Assembly: GCA_024867545.1 (NCBI GenBank)
Contig: JANFNE010000007.1
Location: 930,001-994,000, forward strand
Direction of reading: 5' to 3'
Length of the DNA stretch: 64,000 nucleotides
Origin: Phytopythium helicoides
Taxonomy: Eukaryota; Oomycota; Peronosporomycetes; Pythiales; Pythiaceae
The number at the start of each line of letters is the position of its first letter. Within the stretch, counting starts at the first letter, position 1. Made by a program: the position numbers and the translations under genes. Positions 4,593-42,501 of this stretch are shown piece by piece. The notes under the pieces were generated by a model, which was given only the letters and a program-made list of their open reading frames with translations, did no database searches and was not told where the DNA came from.

Positions 4593-4598
4593 TTATAC

Positions 4599-7500
4599 AC
4601 TGGCCCCATATCGCCGCGCGCGCTCTGTGGCCGCGCGCCGGTCGCATTGCCAGCTCCATTCGCGACCATCACCAGCATGTCACGTTGGACTCGTCACTCC
4701 TGGACGTCTGCCAATCTCCTTCCCACTGGCCCATATCGCCGCGCGCGCTCTGTGGCCGCGCGCCGGTCGCATTGCCAGCTCCATTCGCGACCATCACCAG
4801 CATGTCACGTTGGACTCGTCACTCCTGGACGTCTGCCAATCTCCTTCCCACTGGCCCATATCGCCGCGCGCGCTCTGTGGCCGCGCGCCGGTCGCATTGC
4901 CAGCTCCATTCGCGACCATCACCAGCATGTCACGTTGGACTCGTCACTCCTGGACGTCTGCCAATCTCCTTCCCACTGGCCCATATCGCCGCGCGCGCTC
5001 TGTGGCCGCGCGCCGGTCGCATTGCCAGCTCCATTCGCGACCATCACCAGCATGTCACGTTGGACTCGTCACTCCTGGACGTCTGCCAATCTCCTTCCCA
5101 CTGGCCCATATCGCCGCGCGCGCTCTGTGGCCGCGCGCCGGTCGCATTGCCAGCTCCATTCGCGACCATCACCAGCATGTCACGTTGGACTCGTCACTCC
5201 TGGACGTCTGCCAATCTCCTTCCCACTGGCCCATATCGCCGCGCGCGCTCTGTGGCCGCGCGCCGGTCGCATTGCCAGCTCCATTCGCGACCATCACCAG
5301 CATGTCACGTTGGACTCGTCACTCCTGGACGTCTGCCAATCTCCTTCCCACTGGCCCATATCGCCGCGCGCGCTCTGTGGCCGCGCGCCGGTCGCATTGC
5401 CAGCTCCATTCGCGACCATCACCAGCATGTCACGTTGGACTCGTCACTCCTGGACGTCTGCCAATCTCCTTCCCACTGGCCCATATCGCCGCGCGCGCTC
5501 TGTGGCCGCGCGCCGGTCGCATTGCCAGCTCCATTCGCGACCATCACCAGCATGTCACGTTGGACTCGTCACTCCTGGACGTCTGCCAATCTCCTTCCCA
5601 CTGGCCCATATCGCCGCGCGCGCTCTGTGGCCGCGCGCCGGTCGCATTGCCAGCTCCATTCGCGACCATCACCAGCATGTCACGTTGGACTCGTCACTCC
5701 TGGACGTCTGCCAATCTCCTTCCCACTGGCCCATATCGCCGCGCGCGCTCTGTGGCCGCGCGCCGGTCGCATTGCCAGCTCCATTCGCGACCATCACCAG
5801 CATGTCACGTTGGACTCGTCACTCCTGGACGTCTGCCAATCTCCTTCCCACTGGCCCATATCGCCGCGCGCGCTCTGTGGCCGCGCGCCGGTCGCATTGC
5901 CAGCTCCATTCGCGACCATCACCAGCATGTCACGTTGGACTCGTCACTCCTGGACGTCTGCCAATCTCCTTCCCACTGGCCCATATCGCCGCGCGCGCTC
6001 TGTGGCCGCGCGCCGGTCGCATTGCCAGCTCCATTCGCGACCATCACCAGCATGTCACGTTGGACTCGTCACTCCTGGACGTCTGCCAATCTCCTTCCCA
6101 CTGGCCCATATCGCCGCGCGCGCTCTGTGGCCGCGCGCCGGTCGCATTGCCAGCTCCATTCGCGACCATCACCAGCATGTCACGTTGGACTCGTCACTCC
6201 TGGACGTCTGCCAATCTCCTTCCCACTGGCCCATATCGCCGCGCGCGCTCTGTGGCCGCGCGCCGGTCGCATTGCCAGCTCCATTCGCGACCATCACCAG
6301 CATGTCACGTTGGACTCGTCACTCCTGGACGTCTGCCAATCTCCTTCCCACTGGCCCATATCGCCGCGCGCGCTCTGTGGCCGCGCGCCGGTCGCATTGC
6401 CAGCTCCATTCGCGACCATCACCAGCATGTCACGTTGGACTCGTCACTCCTGGACGTCTGCCAATCTCCTTCCCACTGGCCCATATCGCCGCGCGCGCTC
6501 TGTGGCCGCGCGCCGGTCGCATTGCCAGCTCCATTCGCGACCATCACCAGCATGTCACGTTGGACTCGTCACTCCTGGACGTCTGCCAATCTCCTTCCCA
6601 CTGGCCCATATCGCCGCGCGCGCTCTGTGGCCGCGCGCCGGTCGCATTGCCAGCTCCATTCGCGACCATCACCAGCATGTCACGTTGGACTCGTCACTCC
6701 TGGACGTCTGCCAATCTCCTTCCCACTGGCCCATATCGCCGCGCGCGCTCTGTGGCCGCGCGCCGGTCGCATTGCCAGCTCCATTCGCGACCATCACCAG
6801 CATGTCACGTTGGACTCGTCACTCCTGGACGTCTGCCAATCTCCTTCCCACTGGCCCATATCGCCGCGCGCGCTCTGTGGCCGCGCGCCGGTCGCATTGC
6901 CAGCTCCATTCGCGACCATCACCAGCATGTCACGTTGGACTCGTCACTCCTGGACGTCTGCCAATCTCCTTCCCACTGGCCCATATCGCCGCGCGCGCTC
7001 TGTGGCCGCGCGCCGGTCGCATTGCCAGCTCCATTCGCGACCATCACCAGCATGTCACGTTGGACTCGTCACTCCTGGACGTCTGCCAATCTCCTTCCCA
7101 CTGGCCCATATCGCCGCGCGCGCTCTGTGGCCGCGCGCCGGTCGCATTGCCAGCTCCATTCGCGACCATCACCAGCATGTCACGTTGGACTCGTCACTCC
7201 TGGACGTCTGCCAATCTCCTTCCCACTGGCCCATATCGCCGCGCGCGCTCTGTGGCCGCGCGCCGGTCGCATTGCCAGCTCCATTCGCGACCATCACCAG
7301 CATGTCACGTTGGACTCGTCACTCCTGGACGTCTGCCAATCTCCTTCCCACTGGCCCATATCGCCGCGCGCGCTCTGTGGCCGCGCGCCGGTCGCATTGC
7401 CAGCTCCATTCGCGACCATCACCAGCATGTCACGTTGGACTCGTCACTCCTGGACGTCTGCCAATCTCCTTCCCACTGGCCCATATCGCCGCGCGCGCTC

Positions 7501-10500
7501 TGTGGCCGCGCGCCGGTCGCATTGCCAGCTCCATTCGCGACCATCACCAGCATGTCACGTTGGACTCGTCACTCCTGGACGTCTGCCAATCTCCTTCCCA
7601 CTGGCCCATATCGCCGCGCGCGCTCTGTGGCCGCGCGCCGGTCGCATTGCCAGCTCCATTCGCGACCATCACCAGCATGTCACGTTGGACTCGTCACTCC
7701 TGGACGTCTGCCAATCTCCTTCCCACTGGCCCATATCGCCGCGCGCGCTCTGTGGCCGCGCGCCGGTCGCATTGCCAGCTCCATTCGCGACCATCACCAG
7801 CATGTCACGTTGGACTCGTCACTCCTGGACGTCTGCCAATCTCCTTCCCACTGGCCCATATCGCCGCGCGCGCTCTGTGGCCGCGCGCCGGTCGCATTGC
7901 CAGCTCCATTCGCGACCATCACCAGCATGTCACGTTGGACTCGTCACTCCTGGACGTCTGCCAATCTCCTTCCCACTGGCCCATATCGCCGCGCGCGCTC
8001 TGTGGCCGCGCGCCGGTCGCATTGCCAGCTCCATTCGCGACCATCACCAGCATGTCACGTTGGACTCGTCACTCCTGGACGTCTGCCAATCTCCTTCCCA
8101 CTGGCCCATATCGCCGCGCGCGCTCTGTGGCCGCGCGCCGGTCGCATTGCCAGCTCCATTCGCGACCATCACCAGCATGTCACGTTGGACTCGTCACTCC
8201 TGGACGTCTGCCAATCTCCTTCCCACTGGCCCATATCGCCGCGCGCGCTCTGTGGCCGCGCGCCGGTCGCATTGCCAGCTCCATTCGCGACCATCACCAG
8301 CATGTCACGTTGGACTCGTCACTCCTGGACGTCTGCCAATCTCCTTCCCACTGGCCCATATCGCCGCGCGCGCTCTGTGGCCGCGCGCCGGTCGCATTGC
8401 CAGCTCCATTCGCGACCATCACCAGCATGTCACGTTGGACTCGTCACTCCTGGACGTCTGCCAATCTCCTTCCCACTGGCCCATATCGCCGCGCGCGCTC
8501 TGTGGCCGCGCGCCGGTCGCATTGCCAGCTCCATTCGCGACCATCACCAGCATGTCACGTTGGACTCGTCACTCCTGGACGTCTGCCAATCTCCTTCCCA
8601 CTGGCCCATATCGCCGCGCGCGCTCTGTGGCCGCGCGCCGGTCGCATTGCCAGCTCCATTCGCGACCATCACCAGCATGTCACGTTGGACTCGTCACTCC
8701 TGGACGTCTGCCAATCTCCTTCCCACTGGCCCATATCGCCGCGCGCGCTCTGTGGCCGCGCGCCGGTCGCATTGCCAGCTCCATTCGCGACCATCACCAG
8801 CATGTCACGTTGGACTCGTCACTCCTGGACGTCTGCCAATCTCCTTCCCACTGGCCCATATCGCCGCGCGCGCTCTGTGGCCGCGCGCCGGTCGCATTGC
8901 CAGCTCCATTCGCGACCATCACCAGCATGTCACGTTGGACTCGTCACTCCTGGACGTCTGCCAATCTCCTTCCCACTGGCCCATATCGCCGCGCGCGCTC
9001 TGTGGCCGCGCGCCGGTCGCATTGCCAGCTCCATTCGCGACCATCACCAGCATGTCACGTTGGACTCGTCACTCCTGGACGTCTGCCAATCTCCTTCCCA
9101 CTGGCCCATATCGCCGCGCGCGCTCTGTGGCCGCGCGCCGGTCGCATTGCCAGCTCCATTCGCGACCATCACCAGCATGTCACGTTGGACTCGTCACTCC
9201 TGGACGTCTGCCAATCTCCTTCCCACTGGCCCATATCGCCGCGCGCGCTCTGTGGCCGCGCGCCGGTCGCATTGCCAGCTCCATTCGCGACCATCACCAG
9301 CATGTCACGTTGGACTCGTCACTCCTGGACGTCTGCCAATCTCCTTCCCACTGGCCCATATCGCCGCGCGCGCTCTGTGGCCGCGCGCCGGTCGCATTGC
9401 CAGCTCCATTCGCGACCATCACCAGCATGTCACGTTGGACTCGTCACTCCTGGACGTCTGCCAATCTCCTTCCCACTGGCCCATATCGCCGCGCGCGCTC
9501 TGTGGCCGCGCGCCGGTCGCATTGCCAGCTCCATTCGCGACCATCACCAGCATGTCACGTTGGACTCGTCACTCCTGGACGTCTGCCAATCTCCTTCCCA
9601 CTGGCCCATATCGCCGCGCGCGCTCTGTGGCCGCGCGCCGGTCGCATTGCCAGCTCCATTCGCGACCATCACCAGCATGTCACGTTGGACTCGTCACTCC
9701 TGGACGTCTGCCAATCTCCTTCCCACTGGCCCATATCGCCGCGCGCGCTCTGTGGCCGCGCGCCGGTCGCATTGCCAGCTCCATTCGCGACCATCACCAG
9801 CATGTCACGTTGGACTCGTCACTCCTGGACGTCTGCCAATCTCCTTCCCACTGGCCCATATCGCCGCGCGCGCTCTGTGGCCGCGCGCCGGTCGCATTGC
9901 CAGCTCCATTCGCGACCATCACCAGCATGTCACGTTGGACTCGTCACTCCTGGACGTCTGCCAATCTCCTTCCCACTGGCCCATATCGCCGCGCGCGCTC
10001 TGTGGCCGCGCGCCGGTCGCATTGCCAGCTCCATTCGCGACCATCACCAGCATGTCACGTTGGACTCGTCACTCCTGGACGTCTGCCAATCTCCTTCCCA
10101 CTGGCCCATATCGCCGCGCGCGCTCTGTGGCCGCGCGCCGGTCGCATTGCCAGCTCCATTCGCGACCATCACCAGCATGTCACGTTGGACTCGTCACTCC
10201 TGGACGTCTGCCAATCTCCTTCCCACTGGCCCATATCGCCGCGCGCGCTCTGTGGCCGCGCGCCGGTCGCATTGCCAGCTCCATTCGCGACCATCACCAG
10301 CATGTCACGTTGGACTCGTCACTCCTGGACGTCTGCCAATCTCCTTCCCACTGGCCCATATCGCCGCGCGCGCTCTGTGGCCGCGCGCCGGTCGCATTGC
10401 CAGCTCCATTCGCGACCATCACCAGCATGTCACGTTGGACTCGTCACTCCTGGACGTCTGCCAATCTCCTTCCCACTGGCCCATATCGCCGCGCGCGCTC

Positions 10501-13500
10501 TGTGGCCGCGCGCCGGTCGCATTGCCAGCTCCATTCGCGACCATCACCAGCATGTCACGTTGGACTCGTCACTCCTGGACGTCTGCCAATCTCCTTCCCA
10601 CTGGCCCATATCGCCGCGCGCGCTCTGTGGCCGCGCGCCGGTCGCATTGCCAGCTCCATTCGCGACCATCACCAGCATGTCACGTTGGACTCGTCACTCC
10701 TGGACGTCTGCCAATCTCCTTCCCACTGGCCCATATCGCCGCGCGCGCTCTGTGGCCGCGCGCCGGTCGCATTGCCAGCTCCATTCGCGACCATCACCAG
10801 CATGTCACGTTGGACTCGTCACTCCTGGACGTCTGCCAATCTCCTTCCCACTGGCCCATATCGCCGCGCGCGCTCTGTGGCCGCGCGCCGGTCGCATTGC
10901 CAGCTCCATTCGCGACCATCACCAGCATGTCACGTTGGACTCGTCACTCCTGGACGTCTGCCAATCTCCTTCCCACTGGCCCATATCGCCGCGCGCGCTC
11001 TGTGGCCGCGCGCCGGTCGCATTGCCAGCTCCATTCGCGACCATCACCAGCATGTCACGTTGGACTCGTCACTCCTGGACGTCTGCCAATCTCCTTCCCA
11101 CTGGCCCATATCGCCGCGCGCGCTCTGTGGCCGCGCGCCGGTCGCATTGCCAGCTCCATTCGCGACCATCACCAGCATGTCACGTTGGACTCGTCACTCC
11201 TGGACGTCTGCCAATCTCCTTCCCACTGGCCCATATCGCCGCGCGCGCTCTGTGGCCGCGCGCCGGTCGCATTGCCAGCTCCATTCGCGACCATCACCAG
11301 CATGTCACGTTGGACTCGTCACTCCTGGACGTCTGCCAATCTCCTTCCCACTGGCCCATATCGCCGCGCGCGCTCTGTGGCCGCGCGCCGGTCGCATTGC
11401 CAGCTCCATTCGCGACCATCACCAGCATGTCACGTTGGACTCGTCACTCCTGGACGTCTGCCAATCTCCTTCCCACTGGCCCATATCGCCGCGCGCGCTC
11501 TGTGGCCGCGCGCCGGTCGCATTGCCAGCTCCATTCGCGACCATCACCAGCATGTCACGTTGGACTCGTCACTCCTGGACGTCTGCCAATCTCCTTCCCA
11601 CTGGCCCATATCGCCGCGCGCGCTCTGTGGCCGCGCGCCGGTCGCATTGCCAGCTCCATTCGCGACCATCACCAGCATGTCACGTTGGACTCGTCACTCC
11701 TGGACGTCTGCCAATCTCCTTCCCACTGGCCCATATCGCCGCGCGCGCTCTGTGGCCGCGCGCCGGTCGCATTGCCAGCTCCATTCGCGACCATCACCAG
11801 CATGTCACGTTGGACTCGTCACTCCTGGACGTCTGCCAATCTCCTTCCCACTGGCCCATATCGCCGCGCGCGCTCTGTGGCCGCGCGCCGGTCGCATTGC
11901 CAGCTCCATTCGCGACCATCACCAGCATGTCACGTTGGACTCGTCACTCCTGGACGTCTGCCAATCTCCTTCCCACTGGCCCATATCGCCGCGCGCGCTC
12001 TGTGGCCGCGCGCCGGTCGCATTGCCAGCTCCATTCGCGACCATCACCAGCATGTCACGTTGGACTCGTCACTCCTGGACGTCTGCCAATCTCCTTCCCA
12101 CTGGCCCATATCGCCGCGCGCGCTCTGTGGCCGCGCGCCGGTCGCATTGCCAGCTCCATTCGCGACCATCACCAGCATGTCACGTTGGACTCGTCACTCC
12201 TGGACGTCTGCCAATCTCCTTCCCACTGGCCCATATCGCCGCGCGCGCTCTGTGGCCGCGCGCCGGTCGCATTGCCAGCTCCATTCGCGACCATCACCAG
12301 CATGTCACGTTGGACTCGTCACTCCTGGACGTCTGCCAATCTCCTTCCCACTGGCCCATATCGCCGCGCGCGCTCTGTGGCCGCGCGCCGGTCGCATTGC
12401 CAGCTCCATTCGCGACCATCACCAGCATGTCACGTTGGACTCGTCACTCCTGGACGTCTGCCAATCTCCTTCCCACTGGCCCATATCGCCGCGCGCGCTC
12501 TGTGGCCGCGCGCCGGTCGCATTGCCAGCTCCATTCGCGACCATCACCAGCATGTCACGTTGGACTCGTCACTCCTGGACGTCTGCCAATCTCCTTCCCA
12601 CTGGCCCATATCGCCGCGCGCGCTCTGTGGCCGCGCGCCGGTCGCATTGCCAGCTCCATTCGCGACCATCACCAGCATGTCACGTTGGACTCGTCACTCC
12701 TGGACGTCTGCCAATCTCCTTCCCACTGGCCCATATCGCCGCGCGCGCTCTGTGGCCGCGCGCCGGTCGCATTGCCAGCTCCATTCGCGACCATCACCAG
12801 CATGTCACGTTGGACTCGTCACTCCTGGACGTCTGCCAATCTCCTTCCCACTGGCCCATATCGCCGCGCGCGCTCTGTGGCCGCGCGCCGGTCGCATTGC
12901 CAGCTCCATTCGCGACCATCACCAGCATGTCACGTTGGACTCGTCACTCCTGGACGTCTGCCAATCTCCTTCCCACTGGCCCATATCGCCGCGCGCGCTC
13001 TGTGGCCGCGCGCCGGTCGCATTGCCAGCTCCATTCGCGACCATCACCAGCATGTCACGTTGGACTCGTCACTCCTGGACGTCTGCCAATCTCCTTCCCA
13101 CTGGCCCATATCGCCGCGCGCGCTCTGTGGCCGCGCGCCGGTCGCATTGCCAGCTCCATTCGCGACCATCACCAGCATGTCACGTTGGACTCGTCACTCC
13201 TGGACGTCTGCCAATCTCCTTCCCACTGGCCCATATCGCCGCGCGCGCTCTGTGGCCGCGCGCCGGTCGCATTGCCAGCTCCATTCGCGACCATCACCAG
13301 CATGTCACGTTGGACTCGTCACTCCTGGACGTCTGCCAATCTCCTTCCCACTGGCCCATATCGCCGCGCGCGCTCTGTGGCCGCGCGCCGGTCGCATTGC
13401 CAGCTCCATTCGCGACCATCACCAGCATGTCACGTTGGACTCGTCACTCCTGGACGTCTGCCAATCTCCTTCCCACTGGCCCATATCGCCGCGCGCGCTC

Positions 13501-16500
13501 TGTGGCCGCGCGCCGGTCGCATTGCCAGCTCCATTCGCGACCATCACCAGCATGTCACGTTGGACTCGTCACTCCTGGACGTCTGCCAATCTCCTTCCCA
13601 CTGGCCCATATCGCCGCGCGCGCTCTGTGGCCGCGCGCCGGTCGCATTGCCAGCTCCATTCGCGACCATCACCAGCATGTCACGTTGGACTCGTCACTCC
13701 TGGACGTCTGCCAATCTCCTTCCCACTGGCCCATATCGCCGCGCGCGCTCTGTGGCCGCGCGCCGGTCGCATTGCCAGCTCCATTCGCGACCATCACCAG
13801 CATGTCACGTTGGACTCGTCACTCCTGGACGTCTGCCAATCTCCTTCCCACTGGCCCATATCGCCGCGCGCGCTCTGTGGCCGCGCGCCGGTCGCATTGC
13901 CAGCTCCATTCGCGACCATCACCAGCATGTCACGTTGGACTCGTCACTCCTGGACGTCTGCCAATCTCCTTCCCACTGGCCCATATCGCCGCGCGCGCTC
14001 TGTGGCCGCGCGCCGGTCGCATTGCCAGCTCCATTCGCGACCATCACCAGCATGTCACGTTGGACTCGTCACTCCTGGACGTCTGCCAATCTCCTTCCCA
14101 CTGGCCCATATCGCCGCGCGCGCTCTGTGGCCGCGCGCCGGTCGCATTGCCAGCTCCATTCGCGACCATCACCAGCATGTCACGTTGGACTCGTCACTCC
14201 TGGACGTCTGCCAATCTCCTTCCCACTGGCCCATATCGCCGCGCGCGCTCTGTGGCCGCGCGCCGGTCGCATTGCCAGCTCCATTCGCGACCATCACCAG
14301 CATGTCACGTTGGACTCGTCACTCCTGGACGTCTGCCAATCTCCTTCCCACTGGCCCATATCGCCGCGCGCGCTCTGTGGCCGCGCGCCGGTCGCATTGC
14401 CAGCTCCATTCGCGACCATCACCAGCATGTCACGTTGGACTCGTCACTCCTGGACGTCTGCCAATCTCCTTCCCACTGGCCCATATCGCCGCGCGCGCTC
14501 TGTGGCCGCGCGCCGGTCGCATTGCCAGCTCCATTCGCGACCATCACCAGCATGTCACGTTGGACTCGTCACTCCTGGACGTCTGCCAATCTCCTTCCCA
14601 CTGGCCCATATCGCCGCGCGCGCTCTGTGGCCGCGCGCCGGTCGCATTGCCAGCTCCATTCGCGACCATCACCAGCATGTCACGTTGGACTCGTCACTCC
14701 TGGACGTCTGCCAATCTCCTTCCCACTGGCCCATATCGCCGCGCGCGCTCTGTGGCCGCGCGCCGGTCGCATTGCCAGCTCCATTCGCGACCATCACCAG
14801 CATGTCACGTTGGACTCGTCACTCCTGGACGTCTGCCAATCTCCTTCCCACTGGCCCATATCGCCGCGCGCGCTCTGTGGCCGCGCGCCGGTCGCATTGC
14901 CAGCTCCATTCGCGACCATCACCAGCATGTCACGTTGGACTCGTCACTCCTGGACGTCTGCCAATCTCCTTCCCACTGGCCCATATCGCCGCGCGCGCTC
15001 TGTGGCCGCGCGCCGGTCGCATTGCCAGCTCCATTCGCGACCATCACCAGCATGTCACGTTGGACTCGTCACTCCTGGACGTCTGCCAATCTCCTTCCCA
15101 CTGGCCCATATCGCCGCGCGCGCTCTGTGGCCGCGCGCCGGTCGCATTGCCAGCTCCATTCGCGACCATCACCAGCATGTCACGTTGGACTCGTCACTCC
15201 TGGACGTCTGCCAATCTCCTTCCCACTGGCCCATATCGCCGCGCGCGCTCTGTGGCCGCGCGCCGGTCGCATTGCCAGCTCCATTCGCGACCATCACCAG
15301 CATGTCACGTTGGACTCGTCACTCCTGGACGTCTGCCAATCTCCTTCCCACTGGCCCATATCGCCGCGCGCGCTCTGTGGCCGCGCGCCGGTCGCATTGC
15401 CAGCTCCATTCGCGACCATCACCAGCATGTCACGTTGGACTCGTCACTCCTGGACGTCTGCCAATCTCCTTCCCACTGGCCCATATCGCCGCGCGCGCTC
15501 TGTGGCCGCGCGCCGGTCGCATTGCCAGCTCCATTCGCGACCATCACCAGCATGTCACGTTGGACTCGTCACTCCTGGACGTCTGCCAATCTCCTTCCCA
15601 CTGGCCCATATCGCCGCGCGCGCTCTGTGGCCGCGCGCCGGTCGCATTGCCAGCTCCATTCGCGACCATCACCAGCATGTCACGTTGGACTCGTCACTCC
15701 TGGACGTCTGCCAATCTCCTTCCCACTGGCCCATATCGCCGCGCGCGCTCTGTGGCCGCGCGCCGGTCGCATTGCCAGCTCCATTCGCGACCATCACCAG
15801 CATGTCACGTTGGACTCGTCACTCCTGGACGTCTGCCAATCTCCTTCCCACTGGCCCATATCGCCGCGCGCGCTCTGTGGCCGCGCGCCGGTCGCATTGC
15901 CAGCTCCATTCGCGACCATCACCAGCATGTCACGTTGGACTCGTCACTCCTGGACGTCTGCCAATCTCCTTCCCACTGGCCCATATCGCCGCGCGCGCTC
16001 TGTGGCCGCGCGCCGGTCGCATTGCCAGCTCCATTCGCGACCATCACCAGCATGTCACGTTGGACTCGTCACTCCTGGACGTCTGCCAATCTCCTTCCCA
16101 CTGGCCCATATCGCCGCGCGCGCTCTGTGGCCGCGCGCCGGTCGCATTGCCAGCTCCATTCGCGACCATCACCAGCATGTCACGTTGGACTCGTCACTCC
16201 TGGACGTCTGCCAATCTCCTTCCCACTGGCCCATATCGCCGCGCGCGCTCTGTGGCCGCGCGCCGGTCGCATTGCCAGCTCCATTCGCGACCATCACCAG
16301 CATGTCACGTTGGACTCGTCACTCCTGGACGTCTGCCAATCTCCTTCCCACTGGCCCATATCGCCGCGCGCGCTCTGTGGCCGCGCGCCGGTCGCATTGC
16401 CAGCTCCATTCGCGACCATCACCAGCATGTCACGTTGGACTCGTCACTCCTGGACGTCTGCCAATCTCCTTCCCACTGGCCCATATCGCCGCGCGCGCTC

Positions 16501-19500
16501 TGTGGCCGCGCGCCGGTCGCATTGCCAGCTCCATTCGCGACCATCACCAGCATGTCACGTTGGACTCGTCACTCCTGGACGTCTGCCAATCTCCTTCCCA
16601 CTGGCCCATATCGCCGCGCGCGCTCTGTGGCCGCGCGCCGGTCGCATTGCCAGCTCCATTCGCGACCATCACCAGCATGTCACGTTGGACTCGTCACTCC
16701 TGGACGTCTGCCAATCTCCTTCCCACTGGCCCATATCGCCGCGCGCGCTCTGTGGCCGCGCGCCGGTCGCATTGCCAGCTCCATTCGCGACCATCACCAG
16801 CATGTCACGTTGGACTCGTCACTCCTGGACGTCTGCCAATCTCCTTCCCACTGGCCCATATCGCCGCGCGCGCTCTGTGGCCGCGCGCCGGTCGCATTGC
16901 CAGCTCCATTCGCGACCATCACCAGCATGTCACGTTGGACTCGTCACTCCTGGACGTCTGCCAATCTCCTTCCCACTGGCCCATATCGCCGCGCGCGCTC
17001 TGTGGCCGCGCGCCGGTCGCATTGCCAGCTCCATTCGCGACCATCACCAGCATGTCACGTTGGACTCGTCACTCCTGGACGTCTGCCAATCTCCTTCCCA
17101 CTGGCCCATATCGCCGCGCGCGCTCTGTGGCCGCGCGCCGGTCGCATTGCCAGCTCCATTCGCGACCATCACCAGCATGTCACGTTGGACTCGTCACTCC
17201 TGGACGTCTGCCAATCTCCTTCCCACTGGCCCATATCGCCGCGCGCGCTCTGTGGCCGCGCGCCGGTCGCATTGCCAGCTCCATTCGCGACCATCACCAG
17301 CATGTCACGTTGGACTCGTCACTCCTGGACGTCTGCCAATCTCCTTCCCACTGGCCCATATCGCCGCGCGCGCTCTGTGGCCGCGCGCCGGTCGCATTGC
17401 CAGCTCCATTCGCGACCATCACCAGCATGTCACGTTGGACTCGTCACTCCTGGACGTCTGCCAATCTCCTTCCCACTGGCCCATATCGCCGCGCGCGCTC
17501 TGTGGCCGCGCGCCGGTCGCATTGCCAGCTCCATTCGCGACCATCACCAGCATGTCACGTTGGACTCGTCACTCCTGGACGTCTGCCAATCTCCTTCCCA
17601 CTGGCCCATATCGCCGCGCGCGCTCTGTGGCCGCGCGCCGGTCGCATTGCCAGCTCCATTCGCGACCATCACCAGCATGTCACGTTGGACTCGTCACTCC
17701 TGGACGTCTGCCAATCTCCTTCCCACTGGCCCATATCGCCGCGCGCGCTCTGTGGCCGCGCGCCGGTCGCATTGCCAGCTCCATTCGCGACCATCACCAG
17801 CATGTCACGTTGGACTCGTCACTCCTGGACGTCTGCCAATCTCCTTCCCACTGGCCCATATCGCCGCGCGCGCTCTGTGGCCGCGCGCCGGTCGCATTGC
17901 CAGCTCCATTCGCGACCATCACCAGCATGTCACGTTGGACTCGTCACTCCTGGACGTCTGCCAATCTCCTTCCCACTGGCCCATATCGCCGCGCGCGCTC
18001 TGTGGCCGCGCGCCGGTCGCATTGCCAGCTCCATTCGCGACCATCACCAGCATGTCACGTTGGACTCGTCACTCCTGGACGTCTGCCAATCTCCTTCCCA
18101 CTGGCCCATATCGCCGCGCGCGCTCTGTGGCCGCGCGCCGGTCGCATTGCCAGCTCCATTCGCGACCATCACCAGCATGTCACGTTGGACTCGTCACTCC
18201 TGGACGTCTGCCAATCTCCTTCCCACTGGCCCATATCGCCGCGCGCGCTCTGTGGCCGCGCGCCGGTCGCATTGCCAGCTCCATTCGCGACCATCACCAG
18301 CATGTCACGTTGGACTCGTCACTCCTGGACGTCTGCCAATCTCCTTCCCACTGGCCCATATCGCCGCGCGCGCTCTGTGGCCGCGCGCCGGTCGCATTGC
18401 CAGCTCCATTCGCGACCATCACCAGCATGTCACGTTGGACTCGTCACTCCTGGACGTCTGCCAATCTCCTTCCCACTGGCCCATATCGCCGCGCGCGCTC
18501 TGTGGCCGCGCGCCGGTCGCATTGCCAGCTCCATTCGCGACCATCACCAGCATGTCACGTTGGACTCGTCACTCCTGGACGTCTGCCAATCTCCTTCCCA
18601 CTGGCCCATATCGCCGCGCGCGCTCTGTGGCCGCGCGCCGGTCGCATTGCCAGCTCCATTCGCGACCATCACCAGCATGTCACGTTGGACTCGTCACTCC
18701 TGGACGTCTGCCAATCTCCTTCCCACTGGCCCATATCGCCGCGCGCGCTCTGTGGCCGCGCGCCGGTCGCATTGCCAGCTCCATTCGCGACCATCACCAG
18801 CATGTCACGTTGGACTCGTCACTCCTGGACGTCTGCCAATCTCCTTCCCACTGGCCCATATCGCCGCGCGCGCTCTGTGGCCGCGCGCCGGTCGCATTGC
18901 CAGCTCCATTCGCGACCATCACCAGCATGTCACGTTGGACTCGTCACTCCTGGACGTCTGCCAATCTCCTTCCCACTGGCCCATATCGCCGCGCGCGCTC
19001 TGTGGCCGCGCGCCGGTCGCATTGCCAGCTCCATTCGCGACCATCACCAGCATGTCACGTTGGACTCGTCACTCCTGGACGTCTGCCAATCTCCTTCCCA
19101 CTGGCCCATATCGCCGCGCGCGCTCTGTGGCCGCGCGCCGGTCGCATTGCCAGCTCCATTCGCGACCATCACCAGCATGTCACGTTGGACTCGTCACTCC
19201 TGGACGTCTGCCAATCTCCTTCCCACTGGCCCATATCGCCGCGCGCGCTCTGTGGCCGCGCGCCGGTCGCATTGCCAGCTCCATTCGCGACCATCACCAG
19301 CATGTCACGTTGGACTCGTCACTCCTGGACGTCTGCCAATCTCCTTCCCACTGGCCCATATCGCCGCGCGCGCTCTGTGGCCGCGCGCCGGTCGCATTGC
19401 CAGCTCCATTCGCGACCATCACCAGCATGTCACGTTGGACTCGTCACTCCTGGACGTCTGCCAATCTCCTTCCCACTGGCCCATATCGCCGCGCGCGCTC

Positions 19501-22500
19501 TGTGGCCGCGCGCCGGTCGCATTGCCAGCTCCATTCGCGACCATCACCAGCATGTCACGTTGGACTCGTCACTCCTGGACGTCTGCCAATCTCCTTCCCA
19601 CTGGCCCATATCGCCGCGCGCGCTCTGTGGCCGCGCGCCGGTCGCATTGCCAGCTCCATTCGCGACCATCACCAGCATGTCACGTTGGACTCGTCACTCC
19701 TGGACGTCTGCCAATCTCCTTCCCACTGGCCCATATCGCCGCGCGCGCTCTGTGGCCGCGCGCCGGTCGCATTGCCAGCTCCATTCGCGACCATCACCAG
19801 CATGTCACGTTGGACTCGTCACTCCTGGACGTCTGCCAATCTCCTTCCCACTGGCCCATATCGCCGCGCGCGCTCTGTGGCCGCGCGCCGGTCGCATTGC
19901 CAGCTCCATTCGCGACCATCACCAGCATGTCACGTTGGACTCGTCACTCCTGGACGTCTGCCAATCTCCTTCCCACTGGCCCATATCGCCGCGCGCGCTC
20001 TGTGGCCGCGCGCCGGTCGCATTGCCAGCTCCATTCGCGACCATCACCAGCATGTCACGTTGGACTCGTCACTCCTGGACGTCTGCCAATCTCCTTCCCA
20101 CTGGCCCATATCGCCGCGCGCGCTCTGTGGCCGCGCGCCGGTCGCATTGCCAGCTCCATTCGCGACCATCACCAGCATGTCACGTTGGACTCGTCACTCC
20201 TGGACGTCTGCCAATCTCCTTCCCACTGGCCCATATCGCCGCGCGCGCTCTGTGGCCGCGCGCCGGTCGCATTGCCAGCTCCATTCGCGACCATCACCAG
20301 CATGTCACGTTGGACTCGTCACTCCTGGACGTCTGCCAATCTCCTTCCCACTGGCCCATATCGCCGCGCGCGCTCTGTGGCCGCGCGCCGGTCGCATTGC
20401 CAGCTCCATTCGCGACCATCACCAGCATGTCACGTTGGACTCGTCACTCCTGGACGTCTGCCAATCTCCTTCCCACTGGCCCATATCGCCGCGCGCGCTC
20501 TGTGGCCGCGCGCCGGTCGCATTGCCAGCTCCATTCGCGACCATCACCAGCATGTCACGTTGGACTCGTCACTCCTGGACGTCTGCCAATCTCCTTCCCA
20601 CTGGCCCATATCGCCGCGCGCGCTCTGTGGCCGCGCGCCGGTCGCATTGCCAGCTCCATTCGCGACCATCACCAGCATGTCACGTTGGACTCGTCACTCC
20701 TGGACGTCTGCCAATCTCCTTCCCACTGGCCCATATCGCCGCGCGCGCTCTGTGGCCGCGCGCCGGTCGCATTGCCAGCTCCATTCGCGACCATCACCAG
20801 CATGTCACGTTGGACTCGTCACTCCTGGACGTCTGCCAATCTCCTTCCCACTGGCCCATATCGCCGCGCGCGCTCTGTGGCCGCGCGCCGGTCGCATTGC
20901 CAGCTCCATTCGCGACCATCACCAGCATGTCACGTTGGACTCGTCACTCCTGGACGTCTGCCAATCTCCTTCCCACTGGCCCATATCGCCGCGCGCGCTC
21001 TGTGGCCGCGCGCCGGTCGCATTGCCAGCTCCATTCGCGACCATCACCAGCATGTCACGTTGGACTCGTCACTCCTGGACGTCTGCCAATCTCCTTCCCA
21101 CTGGCCCATATCGCCGCGCGCGCTCTGTGGCCGCGCGCCGGTCGCATTGCCAGCTCCATTCGCGACCATCACCAGCATGTCACGTTGGACTCGTCACTCC
21201 TGGACGTCTGCCAATCTCCTTCCCACTGGCCCATATCGCCGCGCGCGCTCTGTGGCCGCGCGCCGGTCGCATTGCCAGCTCCATTCGCGACCATCACCAG
21301 CATGTCACGTTGGACTCGTCACTCCTGGACGTCTGCCAATCTCCTTCCCACTGGCCCATATCGCCGCGCGCGCTCTGTGGCCGCGCGCCGGTCGCATTGC
21401 CAGCTCCATTCGCGACCATCACCAGCATGTCACGTTGGACTCGTCACTCCTGGACGTCTGCCAATCTCCTTCCCACTGGCCCATATCGCCGCGCGCGCTC
21501 TGTGGCCGCGCGCCGGTCGCATTGCCAGCTCCATTCGCGACCATCACCAGCATGTCACGTTGGACTCGTCACTCCTGGACGTCTGCCAATCTCCTTCCCA
21601 CTGGCCCATATCGCCGCGCGCGCTCTGTGGCCGCGCGCCGGTCGCATTGCCAGCTCCATTCGCGACCATCACCAGCATGTCACGTTGGACTCGTCACTCC
21701 TGGACGTCTGCCAATCTCCTTCCCACTGGCCCATATCGCCGCGCGCGCTCTGTGGCCGCGCGCCGGTCGCATTGCCAGCTCCATTCGCGACCATCACCAG
21801 CATGTCACGTTGGACTCGTCACTCCTGGACGTCTGCCAATCTCCTTCCCACTGGCCCATATCGCCGCGCGCGCTCTGTGGCCGCGCGCCGGTCGCATTGC
21901 CAGCTCCATTCGCGACCATCACCAGCATGTCACGTTGGACTCGTCACTCCTGGACGTCTGCCAATCTCCTTCCCACTGGCCCATATCGCCGCGCGCGCTC
22001 TGTGGCCGCGCGCCGGTCGCATTGCCAGCTCCATTCGCGACCATCACCAGCATGTCACGTTGGACTCGTCACTCCTGGACGTCTGCCAATCTCCTTCCCA
22101 CTGGCCCATATCGCCGCGCGCGCTCTGTGGCCGCGCGCCGGTCGCATTGCCAGCTCCATTCGCGACCATCACCAGCATGTCACGTTGGACTCGTCACTCC
22201 TGGACGTCTGCCAATCTCCTTCCCACTGGCCCATATCGCCGCGCGCGCTCTGTGGCCGCGCGCCGGTCGCATTGCCAGCTCCATTCGCGACCATCACCAG
22301 CATGTCACGTTGGACTCGTCACTCCTGGACGTCTGCCAATCTCCTTCCCACTGGCCCATATCGCCGCGCGCGCTCTGTGGCCGCGCGCCGGTCGCATTGC
22401 CAGCTCCATTCGCGACCATCACCAGCATGTCACGTTGGACTCGTCACTCCTGGACGTCTGCCAATCTCCTTCCCACTGGCCCATATCGCCGCGCGCGCTC

Positions 22501-25500
22501 TGTGGCCGCGCGCCGGTCGCATTGCCAGCTCCATTCGCGACCATCACCAGCATGTCACGTTGGACTCGTCACTCCTGGACGTCTGCCAATCTCCTTCCCA
22601 CTGGCCCATATCGCCGCGCCGGTCGCATTGCCAGCTCCATTCGCGACCATCACCAGCATGTCACGTTGGACTCGTCACTCCTGGACGTCTGCCAATCTCC
22701 TTCCCACTGGCCCATATCGCCGCGCGCGCTCTGTGGCCGCGCGCCGGTCGCATTGCCAGCTCCATTCGCGACCATCACCAGCATGTCACGTTGGACTCGT
22801 CACTCCTGGACGTCTGCCAATCTCCTTCCCACTGGCCCATATCGCCGCGCGCGCTCTGTGGCCGCGCGCCGGTCGCATTGCCAGCTCCATTCGCGACCAT
22901 CACCAGCATGTCACGTTGGACTCGTCACTCCTGGACGTCTGCCAATCTCCTTCCCACTGGCCCATATCGCCGCGCGCGCTCTGTGGCCGCGCGCCGGTCG
23001 CATTGCCAGCTCCATTCGCGACCATCACCAGCATGTCACGTTGGACTCGTCACTCCTGGACGTCTGCCAATCTCCTTCCCACTGGCCCATATCGCCGCGC
23101 GCGCTCTGTGGCCGCGCGCCGGTCGCATTGCCAGCTCCATTCGCGACCATCACCAGCATGTCACGTTGGACTCGTCACTCCTGGACGTCTGCCAATCTCC
23201 TTCCCACTGGCCCATATCGCCGCGCGCGCTCTGTGGCCGCGCGCCGGTCGCATTGCCAGCTCCATTCGCGACCATCACCAGCATGTCACGTTGGACTCGT
23301 CACTCCTGGACGTCTGCCAATCTCCTTCCCACTGGCCCATATCGCCGCGCGCGCTCTGTGGCCGCGCGCCGGTCGCATTGCCAGCTCCATTCGCGACCAT
23401 CACCAGCATGTCACGTTGGACTCGTCACTCCTGGACGTCTGCCAATCTCCTTCCCACTGGCCCATATCGCCGCGCGCGCTCTGTGGCCGCGCGCCGGTCG
23501 CATTGCCAGCTCCATTCGCGACCATCACCAGCATGTCACGTTGGACTCGTCACTCCTGGACGTCTGCCAATCTCCTTCCCACTGGCCCATATCGCCGCGC
23601 GCGCTCTGTGGCCGCGCGCCGGTCGCATTGCCAGCTCCATTCGCGACCATCACCAGCATGTCACGTTGGACTCGTCACTCCTGGACGTCTGCCAATCTCC
23701 TTCCCACTGGCCCATATCGCCGCGCGCGCTCTGTGGCCGCGCGCCGGTCGCATTGCCAGCTCCATTCGCGACCATCACCAGCATGTCACGTTGGACTCGT
23801 CACTCCTGGACGTCTGCCAATCTCCTTCCCACTGGCCCATATCGCCGCGCGCGCTCTGTGGCCGCGCGCCGGTCGCATTGCCAGCTCCATTCGCGACCAT
23901 CACCAGCATGTCACGTTGGACTCGTCACTCCTGGACGTCTGCCAATCTCCTTCCCACTGGCCCATATCGCCGCGCGCGCTCTGTGGCCGCGCGCCGGTCG
24001 CATTGCCAGCTCCATTCGCGACCATCACCAGCATGTCACGTTGGACTCGTCACTCCTGGACGTCTGCCAATCTCCTTCCCACTGGCCCATATCGCCGCGC
24101 GCGCTCTGTGGCCGCGCGCCGGTCGCATTGCCAGCTCCATTCGCGACCATCACCAGCATGTCACGTTGGACTCGTCACTCCTGGACGTCTGCCAATCTCC
24201 TTCCCACTGGCCCATATCGCCGCGCGCGCTCTGTGGCCGCGCGCCGGTCGCATTGCCAGCTCCATTCGCGACCATCACCAGCATGTCACGTTGGACTCGT
24301 CACTCCTGGACGTCTGCCAATCTCCTTCCCACTGGCCCATATCGCCGCGCGCGCTCTGTGGCCGCGCGCCGGTCGCATTGCCAGCTCCATTCGCGACCAT
24401 CACCAGCATGTCACGTTGGACTCGTCACTCCTGGACGTCTGCCAATCTCCTTCCCACTGGCCCATATCGCCGCGCGCGCTCTGTGGCCGCGCGCCGGTCG
24501 CATTGCCAGCTCCATTCGCGACCATCACCAGCATGTCACGTTGGACTCGTCACTCCTGGACGTCTGCCAATCTCCTTCCCACTGGCCCATATCGCCGCGC
24601 GCGCTCTGTGGCCGCGCGCCGGTCGCATTGCCAGCTCCATTCGCGACCATCACCAGCATGTCACGTTGGACTCGTCACTCCTGGACGTCTGCCAATCTCC
24701 TTCCCACTGGCCCATATCGCCGCGCGCGCTCTGTGGCCGCGCGCCGGTCGCATTGCCAGCTCCATTCGCGACCATCACCAGCATGTCACGTTGGACTCGT
24801 CACTCCTGGACGTCTGCCAATCTCCTTCCCACTGGCCCATATCGCCGCGCGCGCTCTGTGGCCGCGCGCCGGTCGCATTGCCAGCTCCATTCGCGACCAT
24901 CACCAGCATGTCACGTTGGACTCGTCACTCCTGGACGTCTGCCAATCTCCTTCCCACTGGCCCATATCGCCGCGCGCGCTCTGTGGCCGCGCGCCGGTCG
25001 CATTGCCAGCTCCATTCGCGACCATCACCAGCATGTCACGTTGGACTCGTCACTCCTGGACGTCTGCCAATCTCCTTCCCACTGGCCCATATCGCCGCGC
25101 GCGCTCTGTGGCCGCGCGCCGGTCGCATTGCCAGCTCCATTCGCGACCATCACCAGCATGTCACGTTGGACTCGTCACTCCTGGACGTCTGCCAATCTCC
25201 TTCCCACTGGCCCATATCGCCGCGCGCGCTCTGTGGCCGCGCGCCGGTCGCATTGCCAGCTCCATTCGCGACCATCACCAGCATGTCACGTTGGACTCGT
25301 CACTCCTGGACGTCTGCCAATCTCCTTCCCACTGGCCCATATCGCCGCGCGCGCTCTGTGGCCGCGCGCCGGTCGCATTGCCAGCTCCATTCGCGACCAT
25401 CACCAGCATGTCACGTTGGACTCGTCACTCCTGGACGTCTGCCAATCTCCTTCCCACTGGCCCATATCGCCGCGCGCGCTCTGTGGCCGCGCGCCGGTCG

Positions 25501-34500: not shown

Positions 34501-37500
34501 CATTGCCAGCTCCATTCGCGACCATCACCAGCATGTCACGTTGGACTCGTCACTCCTGGACGTCTGCCAATCTCCTTCCCACTGGCCCATATCGCCGCGC
34601 GCGCTCTGTGGCCGCGCGCCGGTCGCATTGCCAGCTCCATTCGCGACCATCACCAGCATGTCACGTTGGACTCGTCACTCCTGGACGTCTGCCAATCTCC
34701 TTCCCACTGGCCCATATCGCCGCGCGCGCTCTGTGGCCGCGCGCCGGTCGCATTGCCAGCTCCATTCGCGACCATCACCAGCATGTCACGTTGGACTCGT
34801 CACTCCTGGACGTCTGCCAATCTCCTTCCCACTGGCCCATATCGCCGCGCGCGCTCTGTGGCCGCGCGCCGGTCGCATTGCCAGCTCCATTCGCGACCAT
34901 CACCAGCATGTCACGTTGGACTCGTCACTCCTGGACGTCTGCCAATCTCCTTCCCACTGGCCCATATCGCCGCGCGCGCTCTGTGGCCGCGCGCCGGTCG
35001 CATTGCCAGCTCCATTCGCGACCATCACCAGCATGTCACGTTGGACTCGTCACTCCTGGACGTCTGCCAATCTCCTTCCCACTGGCCCATATCGCCGCGC
35101 GCGCTCTGTGGCCGCGCGCCGGTCGCATTGCCAGCTCCATTCGCGACCATCACCAGCATGTCACGTTGGACTCGTCACTCCTGGACGTCTGCCAATCTCC
35201 TTCCCACTGGCCCATATCGCCGCGCGCGCTCTGTGGCCGCGCGCCGGTCGCATTGCCAGCTCCATTCGCGACCATCACCAGCATGTCACGTTGGACTCGT
35301 CACTCCTGGACGTCTGCCAATCTCCTTCCCACTGGCCCATATCGCCGCGCGCGCTCTGTGGCCGCGCGCCGGTCGCATTGCCAGCTCCATTCGCGACCAT
35401 CACCAGCATGTCACGTTGGACTCGTCACTCCTGGACGTCTGCCAATCTCCTTCCCACTGGCCCATATCGCCGCGCGCGCTCTGTGGCCGCGCGCCGGTCG
35501 CATTGCCAGCTCCATTCGCGACCATCACCAGCATGTCACGTTGGACTCGTCACTCCTGGACGTCTGCCAATCTCCTTCCCACTGGCCCATATCGCCGCGC
35601 GCGCTCTGTGGCCGCGCGCCGGTCGCATTGCCAGCTCCATTCGCGACCATCACCAGCATGTCACGTTGGACTCGTCACTCCTGGACGTCTGCCAATCTCC
35701 TTCCCACTGGCCCATATCGCCGCGCGCGCTCTGTGGCCGCGCGCCGGTCGCATTGCCAGCTCCATTCGCGACCATCACCAGCATGTCACGTTGGACTCGT
35801 CACTCCTGGACGTCTGCCAATCTCCTTCCCACTGGCCCATATCGCCGCGCGCGCTCTGTGGCCGCGCGCCGGTCGCATTGCCAGCTCCATTCGCGACCAT
35901 CACCAGCATGTCACGTTGGACTCGTCACTCCTGGACGTCTGCCAATCTCCTTCCCACTGGCCCATATCGCCGCGCGCGCTCTGTGGCCGCGCGCCGGTCG
36001 CATTGCCAGCTCCATTCGCGACCATCACCAGCATGTCACGTTGGACTCGTCACTCCTGGACGTCTGCCAATCTCCTTCCCACTGGCCCATATCGCCGCGC
36101 GCGCTCTGTGGCCGCGCGCCGGTCGCATTGCCAGCTCCATTCGCGACCATCACCAGCATGTCACGTTGGACTCGTCACTCCTGGACGTCTGCCAATCTCC
36201 TTCCCACTGGCCCATATCGCCGCGCGCGCTCTGTGGCCGCGCGCCGGTCGCATTGCCAGCTCCATTCGCGACCATCACCAGCATGTCACGTTGGACTCGT
36301 CACTCCTGGACGTCTGCCAATCTCCTTCCCACTGGCCCATATCGCCGCGCGCGCTCTGTGGCCGCGCGCCGGTCGCATTGCCAGCTCCATTCGCGACCAT
36401 CACCAGCATGTCACGTTGGACTCGTCACTCCTGGACGTCTGCCAATCTCCTTCCCACTGGCCCATATCGCCGCGCGCGCTCTGTGGCCGCGCGCCGGTCG
36501 CATTGCCAGCTCCATTCGCGACCATCACCAGCATGTCACGTTGGACTCGTCACTCCTGGACGTCTGCCAATCTCCTTCCCACTGGCCCATATCGCCGCGC
36601 GCGCTCTGTGGCCGCGCGCCGGTCGCATTGCCAGCTCCATTCGCGACCATCACCAGCATGTCACGTTGGACTCGTCACTCCTGGACGTCTGCCAATCTCC
36701 TTCCCACTGGCCCATATCGCCGCGCGCGCTCTGTGGCCGCGCGCCGGTCGCATTGCCAGCTCCATTCGCGACCATCACCAGCATGTCACGTTGGACTCGT
36801 CACTCCTGGACGTCTGCCAATCTCCTTCCCACTGGCCCATATCGCCGCGCGCGCTCTGTGGCCGCGCGCCGGTCGCATTGCCAGCTCCATTCGCGACCAT
36901 CACCAGCATGTCACGTTGGACTCGTCACTCCTGGACGTCTGCCAATCTCCTTCCCACTGGCCCATATCGCCGCGCGCGCTCTGTGGCCGCGCGCCGGTCG
37001 CATTGCCAGCTCCATTCGCGACCATCACCAGCATGTCACGTTGGACTCGTCACTCCTGGACGTCTGCCAATCTCCTTCCCACTGGCCCATATCGCCGCGC
37101 GCGCTCTGTGGCCGCGCGCCGGTCGCATTGCCAGCTCCATTCGCGACCATCACCAGCATGTCACGTTGGACTCGTCACTCCTGGACGTCTGCCAATCTCC
37201 TTCCCACTGGCCCATATCGCCGCGCGCGCTCTGTGGCCGCGCGCCGGTCGCATTGCCAGCTCCATTCGCGACCATCACCAGCATGTCACGTTGGACTCGT
37301 CACTCCTGGACGTCTGCCAATCTCCTTCCCACTGGCCCATATCGCCGCGCGCGCTCTGTGGCCGCGCGCCGGTCGCATTGCCAGCTCCATTCGCGACCAT
37401 CACCAGCATGTCACGTTGGACTCGTCACTCCTGGACGTCTGCCAATCTCCTTCCCACTGGCCCATATCGCCGCGCGCGCTCTGTGGCCGCGCGCCGGTCG

Positions 37501-38589
37501 CATTGCCAGCTCCATTCGCGACCATCACCAGCATGTCACGTTGGACTCGTCACTCCTGGACGTCTGCCAATCTCCTTCCCACTGGCCCATATCGCCGCGC
37601 GCGCTCTGTGGCCGCGCGCCGGTCGCATTGCCAGCTCCATTCGCGACCATCACCAGCATGTCACGTTGGACTCGTCACTCCTGGACGTCTGCCAATCTCC
37701 TTCCCACTGGCCCATATCGCCGCGCGCGCTCTGTGGCCGCGCGCCGGTCGCATTGCCAGCTCCATTCGCGACCATCACCAGCATGTCACGTTGGACTCGT
37801 CACTCCTGGACGTCTGCCAATCTCCTTCCCACTGGCCCATATCGCCGCGCGCGCTCTGTGGCCGCGCGCCGGTCGCATTGCCAGCTCCATTCGCGACCAT
37901 CACCAGCATGTCACGTTGGACTCGTCACTCCTGGACGTCTGCCAATCTCCTTCCCACTGGCCCATATCGCCGCGCGCGCTCTGTGGCCGCGCGCCGGTCG
38001 CATTGCCAGCTCCATTCGCGACCATCACCAGCATGTCACGTTGGACTCGTCACTCCTGGACGTCTGCCAATCTCCTTCCCACTGGCCCATATCGCCGCGC
38101 GCGCTCTGTGGCCGCGCGCCGGTCGCATTGCCAGCTCCATTCGCGACCATCACCAGCATGTCACGTTGGACTCGTCACTCCTGGACGTCTGCCAATCTCC
38201 TTCCCACTGGCCCATATCGCCGCGCGCGCTCTGTGGCCGCGCGCCGGTCGCATTGCCAGCTCCATTCGCGACCATCACCAGCATGTCACGTTGGACTCGT
38301 CACTCCTGGACGTCTGCCAATCTCCTTCCCACTGGCCCATATCGCCGCGCGCGCTCTGTGGCCGCGCGCCGGTCGCATTGCCAGCTCCATTCGCGACCAT
38401 CACCAGCATGTCACGTTGGACTCGTCACTCCTGGACGTCTGCCAATCTCCTTCCCACTGGCCCATATCGCCGCGCGCGCTCTGTGGCCGCGCGCCGGTCG
38501 CATTGCCAGCTCCATTCGCGACCATCACCAGCATGTCACGTTGGACTCGTCACTCCTGGACGTCTGCCAATCTTCTTTCTACTGGCCCA
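4599..38589 (+). repeat. 125-bp satellite array, 272 units
   Basis: A head-to-tail array with a 125-bp period. Taking the CATATCGCC of each unit as the anchor, anchors fall at 4607+125n up to 22607, then at 22713+125n up to the degenerate end at 38588. That gives 272 unit intervals with only one net length change, a 19-bp deletion in the unit at 22607-22712. I noticed one base substitution (31489, G to C). The first unit has an extra C (GGCCCC) and the last has several changes from 38572 onward. The unit is 65% GC by my count (51 C, 30 G, 17 A, 27 T), so the plus strand is strongly C-rich. It contains GCGCGC on both sides of a short spacer (a potential hairpin) and no stop trinucleotide on the plus strand. 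Near-identity over 34 kb implies very recent amplification, continual homogenisation, or assembly smoothing. Confidence 0.98.
22607..22712 (+). repeat. Variant 106-bp satellite unit with 19-bp deletion
   Basis: This is the only unit of abnormal length. About 19 bp between two GC-rich GCCGCGC-like direct repeats (which also form the arms of the unit's inverted repeat) are missing, consistent with slippage or deletion across a hairpin. Confidence 0.9.
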
Positions 38590-39672
38590 CAAATAGAAGG
38601 GTAACCTAAAGAATTTTGTGGCGCTAAGGCTACTATTGATGATTGGGAAACTCTCCTGCCAAAATTCAAGAAAATCAAGCAGGTGAATCGTAAATATTGC
38701 GGGGGTTAGCTAAGTGACTTTATGGGAAAAGAGATGAGACGCACGAAAAACCACGAATGATGGAGCTCATTCCTAGATTAGTGCTGATATGGCCTTGGCG
38801 AATGCCTTCCTGATGCTTGCTTGAAGTCTTCTCACTGAGAAAGAAGTTGTCGTGCTGCTTTCCACTCGTCCTCTACCTGTGCAGCAGTGAATTTGTTACA
38901 CCGTGCAACTCAACATCAACATGTTCAAGGTTTCGCTTTTAGAATCGGGACTTGTTCCAGCTCTTCGAGTGCCTCAGGTTGAGCTAGCAGTACCTGCTGT
39001 CAATCAGGTCTAATTTCAGTGTTTTTGGCGTTATGTGCGTGATGTTTCGTCGTATGCCATATCGTGGTCGCTACACTGACTTGGCTCCATTATTTGTGTG
39101 CCACCCAACTATGTTGTGTATGATCGTCATTCTCATGTTCCGGAACAGTTATCTTTCTCCCTGTATTGAACAAGAGACAAGGGCATGGTCTCCGTTGAGG
39201 TCGGTATATCAAGCAGGATCATGGCACTCGGTGCCCATGTATCCCTCTGCTCCAAGCATTTCAGTAGCCGCTACTGTTCCTGTTGTTGCTATAGTTGACA
39301 TGCCTTTTATCTATCAGTCTCCATTCTTCGCATCATTACGTCTCACAGTATCGATGCCGTCTCCTCTTTTAGATTTGCTCATCCTTTCCCTGCTGCTTCT
39401 CGCTAAGCCGGATGAGCTCGACCTTGCACACCACTAGCAGTTCCTGAAGCTACCAACCGCGAGCTGATTAGTCCTTTTCGAAGCCGTACAACGGCTCACT
39501 AGTTTTCTGCACGAATTCATAATTGTAACGTATCGTATACAAGCGCTCCCGGCATTGATGTCCATTGCCAAGAGCGCTGATCCTTATTCACTACGCTTGA
39601 ATATTATCGCCAGACATCTCCCCAAATGGGTTGTGTATGTGCGTCTGGAGACAAAGTTGTTCTTCTAAACAT
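38590..39672. other. AT-richer spacer with no recognisable gene
   Basis: Base composition drops sharply after the satellite. The longest open frame (39033-39437, 134 codons, hydrophobic C-terminal half) starts at an ATG but shows no family motif. I treat the stretch as decayed, probably transposon-derived sequence. Confidence 0.5.
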
Positions 39673-40134
39673 TTCTACGGTTTGCGTTATGTACAACTCT
39701 CACCGGTTGCACAAATCTATAGCGACGGAATGGAGTGTATGAAAAGTTAGTGATGACACACCACGATATTTGTGCGCAAAGTAAGATTCGCTTAGCCTTT
39801 CTGGCAGGCGACTACCAATACTGGGCTGAGTATGGGATGGCAGCTTATGTTGCTGGCCAAGTTACTCAACAACGTCTATCTTTTCCTTGTCCTTTCGATA
39901 GAGTTCTACGGTTTGCGTTATGTACAACTCTCACCGGTTGCACAAATCTATAGCGACGGAATGGAGTGTATGAAAAGTTAGTGATGACACACCACGATAC
40001 TTGTGCGCAAAGTAAGATTCGCTTAGCCTTTCTGGCAGGCGACTACCAATACTGGGCTGAGTATGGGATGGCAGCTTATGTTGCTGGCCAAGTTACTCAA
40101 CAACGTCTATCTTTTCCTTGTCCTTTCGATAGAG
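39673..40134 (+). repeat. Tandem duplication of a 231-bp segment
   Basis: 39673-39903 and 39904-40134 are consecutive copies differing, as far as I can see, at one base (GATATTT versus GATACTT near 39768/39999). The length is a multiple of three and each copy carries the same short open frame (beginning MYEKLVMTHHD). The encoded peptide is not recognised. The flanks suggest decayed mobile DNA. Confidence 0.9.
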
Positions 40135-42240: not shown

Positions 42241-42501
42241 GAGCTAGTCGAGAATCTGCATCAACAGGACTAATCCAAGATTTAGAACGAACTCGGCGCT
42301 GCAAGCGGCGAAGGAAATAGACACGGTGAGGCCTTCGACTCAGGAATCCAAGATAACGGAAGAATACCCGTCATGAAGGGGTAAAAGAGCAACGTCTATT
42401 CCAGTGGGTCTATTTACTACATCAACTCGGCCAGACGGATGAAGAGTAGAGACTCAAGCCAGTCCCCCAGAAACTCGTCCAGAGCTTGTTAAGTCGTCTC
42501 C

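Follow-up and report, generated by a model that had tools for sequence, protein, structure and literature searches.

The window, i.e., the whole stretch of 64,000 nucleotides analyzed in this study, spans positions 930,001-994,000 of contig C68 (1,551,574 bp) in the Phytopythium helicoides assembly (49.06 Mb, 100 contigs). Positions below refer to the window unless another contig is named. The window contains a satellite array of 272 head-to-tail units of 125 bp with a GC content of about 65% (4599..38589, + strand; hereafter the window array), which was delineated by TRF, by a self-comparison at a lag of 125 bases and by core anchors. TRF calls a period of 125 over 4598-38589. The 272 core anchors are spaced 125 bp apart throughout save for one interval of 106, and 269 of the 271 core-to-core intervals are identical, with one lacking 19 bp and one carrying a single substitution. 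The lag comparison likewise reveals only two internal disturbances, specifically the sole short unit (106 bp, with a 19-bp deletion; 22509..22614, + strand) and the sole internal substitution (31489, + strand). The initial annotation had reported 272 units in 125-bp register with one length change and one substitution, and its coordinates, count and description proved correct.

Across subfamilies, conservation of the unit is highest in a 17-bp core, GTCACGTTGGACTCGTC, with its first copy at 4679..4695 (+ strand). At the left edge (4599..4606, + strand) the array opens with ACTGGCCC, followed by one extra C (C run 4604-4607) and then by the common unit. The right edge (38574..38589, + strand) shows three C-to-T differences (38574, 38578, and 38580) and ends in ACTGGCCCA. 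Both edges are sharp and in equal unit phase, and ACTGGCCC is present at each of them (4599-4606 and 38581-38588).

Open reading frames of an ordinary kind, with ankyrin, TauD, formin, and SURP/PRP21 (splicing factor) domains, lie inside the window, and ABC-transporter ORFs are found in the 10 kb upstream of it, which bears out the earlier description of a locus that is gene-dense apart from the array filling more than half of it. This description is qualified by retroelement remains at 41.3-43.7 kb and a second tandem array from 61.2 kb. The TauD-domain protein has its best matches in oomycetes (identities of 72-76% with most of the Phytophthora and 70% with the Globisporangium species among the matches listed). 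Two copies of a 231-bp repeat adjoin the window array (39663..40124, + strand). The retroelement remains (41327..43707, + strand) comprise RNase H fragments, an RVT_1 match below the Pfam cut-off, and an RVT_2 ORF of Copia type (42502-43707) whose likeness to the Copia family of the other arrays, described below, is only about 36%. The second tandem array (61203..64000, + strand) has an 878-bp unit and extends about 15 kb past the window, to about 79 kb on the window scale; it is nearly uniform and is interrupted once, near 71.2-72.3 kb. Positions 54-224 of the 878-bp unit match, at 77-78%, a repeated set on contig C24 (767-777 kb), about 67 kb from the relic of the 125-bp satellite on that contig.

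The initial annotation proposed searching the genome for other copies, and this search uncovered related arrays or relics on ten further contigs. The 17-base core pattern with at most two mismatches has 2,833 matches in the genome, compared to 33 for the reversed control. Copies were placed by this pattern together with DNA queries using units of the window, C15, C46, and C28 arrays and of C35; the window array itself is absent among the matches listed for the query with its own unit. In total, arrays or relics are present on 11 contigs (C15, C16, C24, C28, C29, C35, C46, C60, C64, C71, and C68). This number is a lower bound since only the best candidates were scored and very common words were skipped; 100 of the 2,833 core places are listed, and more arrays may exist. 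The window array is therefore no lone feature, as it had been taken to be, but belongs to a family that is spread over the genome and linked to a Copia element. With its non-coding unit arranged head to tail in long arrays at more than one locus, this family is satellite DNA.

An alignment of 11 units splits the family in two. The first group consists of the units of C68, C29, the C29 edge, C60, C46, and C35, which are 75-96% alike; in the second, the C15, C16, C71, and C24 units are 88-93% alike, with C28 standing more loosely at 70-79% to this group. Units of different groups are 56-71% identical outside the core and agree at 14 to 17 of the 17 core positions. Differences among subfamily units range from 4 to 39%, and the nearest relatives of the window unit are those of C29 (96%) and C60 (91%). 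The unit length is 125 bp in most arrays, but 124 bp in C28, with additional lengths of 108 and 123 bp in C46 and a 110-bp relic on C24. On C46 (1294-1309 kb), the 125-, 108-, and 123-bp units are irregularly mixed, with a solo 368-bp LTR inside. Core anchors run from end to end of C60. An array is present at the very start of contig C15, and units of equal score on C64 reach to within 0.8 kb of the contig end, so these two contigs may adjoin. Contig C35 opens with 27 CCCTAAA telomere motifs (positions 1-800).

The best 17-column window of the alignment holds 14 of the 43 invariant columns, with a permutation p of 0.012 that is biased because the core itself served as the search pattern that led to C15, the entry to the second group. 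In alpha satellite with a CENP-B box, a diverging monomer likewise keeps one well conserved 17-bp stretch and forms array-specific variants. The 125-bp family resembles it in these two respects, a likeness of organization that implies no shared sequence. We also considered a strong hairpin as a general feature of the unit. A G+C-rich inverted repeat is a feature of many subfamilies and is visible in the folds of several units, but the eight units folded gave z values from -0.4 to -3.6 and the window unit is ordinary (z -0.4), and the candidate was rejected.

The window array can be read through in all three + strand frames, as can the C29 and C46 units, which would suit a giant repetitive gene. 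This open state is not kept across subfamilies: the C68, C29, C29 edge, and C46 units are free of + strand stops, whereas stops occur in 7 of the 11 subfamily units (C60, C35, C15, C16, C71, C24, and C28). We therefore regard the array as non-coding and reject a coding megasatellite. Two translated pieces from the start of the array also gave no Pfam match. An array of small RNA or tRNA genes was rejected as well, as the window yields no Rfam match at the gathering score and no tRNA. Taken together, a coding or RNA-gene nature of the array is extremely improbable.

The window array is the most uniform of the five arrays for which diversity was measured. The mean pairwise difference per base, calculated from 125-bp units alone with other unit lengths dropped, is 5.9e-5 for C68 (270 of 271 units), 6.8e-4 for C46 (69 of 121 units), 2.1e-2 for C29 (67 of 69 units, divergent edge units included), 2.2e-2 for C60 (324 of 358 units, a noisy stretch included), and 3.3e-2 for C15 (158 of 159 units). 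Units are closer within arrays than between arrays, as in concerted evolution. The C29 array has divergent edge units around a uniform interior, a pattern that fits the prediction of unequal exchange. Neighboring units are identical more often than in all 2,000 shuffles in C15 (54 of 158; shuffle mean 35.0) and in C60 (252 of 357; shuffle mean 205.8), while identical neighbors are rarer than the shuffle mean in C46 (39 of 120 versus 48.7). Near one end of C15 (positions 1-20000), variant blocks repeat in threes and resemble higher-order repeats; such repeated multi-unit blocks agree with unequal exchange. The uniformity of the window array and its sharp, same-phase edges fit a recent expansion, and a recent founding or expansion is likely, by a mechanism that may have involved either a circle or unequal exchange. 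Of the causes named in the initial annotation, recent expansion or strong homogenization is thus in line with the four less uniform arrays and the C29 pattern, while smoothing by the assembler may still have acted locally.

It is quite unlikely that the homogeneity or the length is mainly a product of assembly, with noisy reads collapsed to one consensus and an arbitrary unit count. The longest variant-free stretch of the window array measures 17.9 kb; reads shorter than this could not fix the unit count, whose reliability is set by the longest reads. Other arrays do break the assembly (C60 is anchored over its entire length, C15 begins within an array, and the C64 units lie near a contig end), and a noisy stretch in C60 seems poorly corrected. 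Against this, the window array retains two singletons, the 19-bp deletion and the substitution, and variants, blocks, and edge units remain specific to the arrays of other contigs, although genome-wide smoothing would mix them. Any smoothing would have to be local: the subfamily differences, the deletion and the substitution persist, and the noise in C60 illustrates how a poorly corrected repeat appears in this assembly. We should note that the differences between arrays speak against genome-wide smoothing but not against a wrong length of the window array.

The Copia family that accompanies the satellite is represented by a reference element of 4.8 kb with 368-bp LTRs on C29 (24752-29535). 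Its RT region has 30 near-complete matches of at least 94% on 16 contigs (17 with fragments) among the best 40 of 41 candidates. The near-complete copies are clustered on some contigs (six on C39, four on C75, and four on C28) and, within the same 40 candidates, single on C5, C21, C29, C42, C47, C51, C64, and C79. Copies of the LTR are found on 14 contigs among the best 40 of 67 candidates. With C60 left out for its end-to-end core anchors, ten array loci could be tested. At seven of them (C16, C28, C29, C35, C46, C64, and C71), a copy of the element or of its LTR lies no more than 5 kb away, and a broken copy 26 kb from the C24 relic raises the number to eight of ten within 26 kb. Under uniform independent placement, the corresponding p values are about 6e-13 (5 kb) and 6e-12 (26 kb), for distances picked after the data were seen. 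The remaining two loci, C15 and C68, have no member of the family among the matches listed; for C68, this covers the best 40 of 67 LTR candidates and the best 40 of 41 RT candidates, and the Copia-type matches on this contig at 972.5, 1321.7, and 1350.8 kb belong to other families.

The Copia element inserts into satellite units. Junctions between LTR and satellite were found for eight elements on six contigs (two on C16, one on C28, two on C35, and one each on C46, C64, and C71). They fall at several positions of the unit, and no single preferred insertion site is seen; the two C35 junctions share one position and may go back to one duplicated event. Satellite sequence is present in 5 of the 33 outer LTR flanks fetched, namely on both sides of one C28 element and on C35, C64, and C16. 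The other 28 flanks contain none, including every flank read on C5, C39, C42, C47, C66, C75, C79, and C86 as well as the flanks of one C46 element and of three more elements on C28, so a Copia locus can do without the satellite. A second LTR retrotransposon, with 613-bp LTRs that are 99.8% alike, lies inside the 125-bp array of C29 (7126-14660), and another copy of this element is found 2 kb away from the C46 array. This family was discarded as a satellite-seeker: its best 40 of 48 candidates are dispersed over 20 contigs, and six flanks of other copies gave no convincing satellite match (best E 0.0075). Satellites derived from retroelements are known in plants (PMC7004042). Genome queries with the 125-bp units list no match inside the two LTR elements examined on C29.

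In Phytophthora sojae, clusters of the Copia element CoLT mark CENP-A regions and the centromeres, which are described as gene-poor and 211-356 kb in size (PMC7082073), and later assemblies use Copia-like elements or CoLT as centromere marks in the same way (PMC11139960; PMC9584435). The present Copia family resembles CoLT, compared by distribution only, in being concentrated at about one locus per contig. Unlike at the CoLT centromeres described, many of the Copia loci also hold a satellite family, and the window array has genes close to both sides and no Copia cluster among the matches listed. Two satellite families have been reported from Phytophthora parasitica, specifically PpSat2, with a 142-bp unit of 57% GC in gene-rich places, and PpSat1, with one monomer in 333 copies among retroelements and a proposed centromeric location (PMC7290008). 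Like the 125-bp family, they are oomycete satellites in arrays with divergent edge repeats, but their published unit lengths and composition differ; in P. helicoides, one family occupies both settings and Copia inserts into its units. Aphanomyces euteiches harbors 41 tandem repeat families (AeSat) of 100-500 bp with up to more than 3,000 copies, for which, in contrast to the Copia link of the 125-bp family, the part of the report consulted describes no association with centromeres or Copia loci (PMC8780586). Among the literature matches listed, with subscription papers mostly outside the scope of the search, none describes an oomycete satellite with a 125-bp unit that is associated with Copia loci.

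With seven of ten testable loci near one Copia family, and Copia clusters marking the centromeres of P. sojae, the 125-bp family is probably centromeric or pericentromeric. The explanation that we favor, and consider reasonably likely, is that of a non-coding satellite of a genome-wide family with array-specific variants, situated mostly at Copia loci and linked to centromeres, of which the window array is a young member. The loci shared by Copia and satellite would then be centromeres or their flanks, and the satellite could serve as structural chromatin, with a unit of nucleosome scale and a core that possibly binds a protein. Unequal exchange and conversion would keep each array uniform. 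The window array would have been founded from a unit near the C29/C60 type, and its expansion would be recent enough for almost no mutations to have accumulated. Several observations weigh against this explanation: true Copia clusters are limited to some of the contigs, most outer LTR flanks (28 of 33) are free of satellite, neighboring units in C46 are less often identical than in the shuffles, and the hairpin energy of the window unit is ordinary. For the window array itself, the close genes and the lack of the Copia family among the C68 matches listed also argue against a centromere.

These same two features would suit an ectopic, functionless copy on a chromosome arm, formed when a circle from a C29- or C60-like array integrated via a short match and was then amplified. 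The sharp, same-phase edges sharing ACTGGCCC are what one circle crossover into a site would leave, and the closest relatives of the window unit are indeed other arrays. However, other arrays likewise reach unique sequence with ORFs (C28 at 486 kb and C15 at 22 kb, the latter ORF without Pfam match), and the same-phase edges may be due to chance, which we estimate by judgement at a few per cent. In addition, the right-edge unit may be old since its bases at 38578 and 38580 match those of the C29-edge, C46, and C35 units. We consider such an ectopic origin possible, albeit with less than even probability.

It is somewhat unlikely that the window array is instead a compact, satellite-only active centromere of its chromosome. 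It is the longest array here with both flanks and belongs to the same family as the arrays at Copia loci. The C68 matches listed contain no other candidate locus, a weak argument as the listings cover only the best candidates and one of them also omitted the window array. The nearby genes again speak against this role. Moreover, no telomere motif was found in the first 3 kb or the last 1 kb of C68, so this contig is probably a chromosome piece whose centromere may lie elsewhere. A broader version of this idea, which we hold to be just as doubtful, is that P. helicoides has satellite-based centromeres, in which the 125-bp unit would be kept at nucleosome scale, its conserved 17-bp core would bind a centromere protein, a centromere-seeking Copia would have invaded most loci, and the window array would be a just expanded, compact satellite-only centromere among genes.

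The window array is genuine and represents an ordinary kind of sequence, satellite DNA, in an extreme state, and its setting adds interest beyond the array alone. It is also a good test case for the assembly of near-identical repeats. Oomycete centromeres have so far been described from Copia clusters. A satellite that shares many Copia loci, with arrays differing in age and Copia load, would test whether centromere identity resides in the satellite or in the retroelement, and the same set of arrays would also test how a satellite array is founded.
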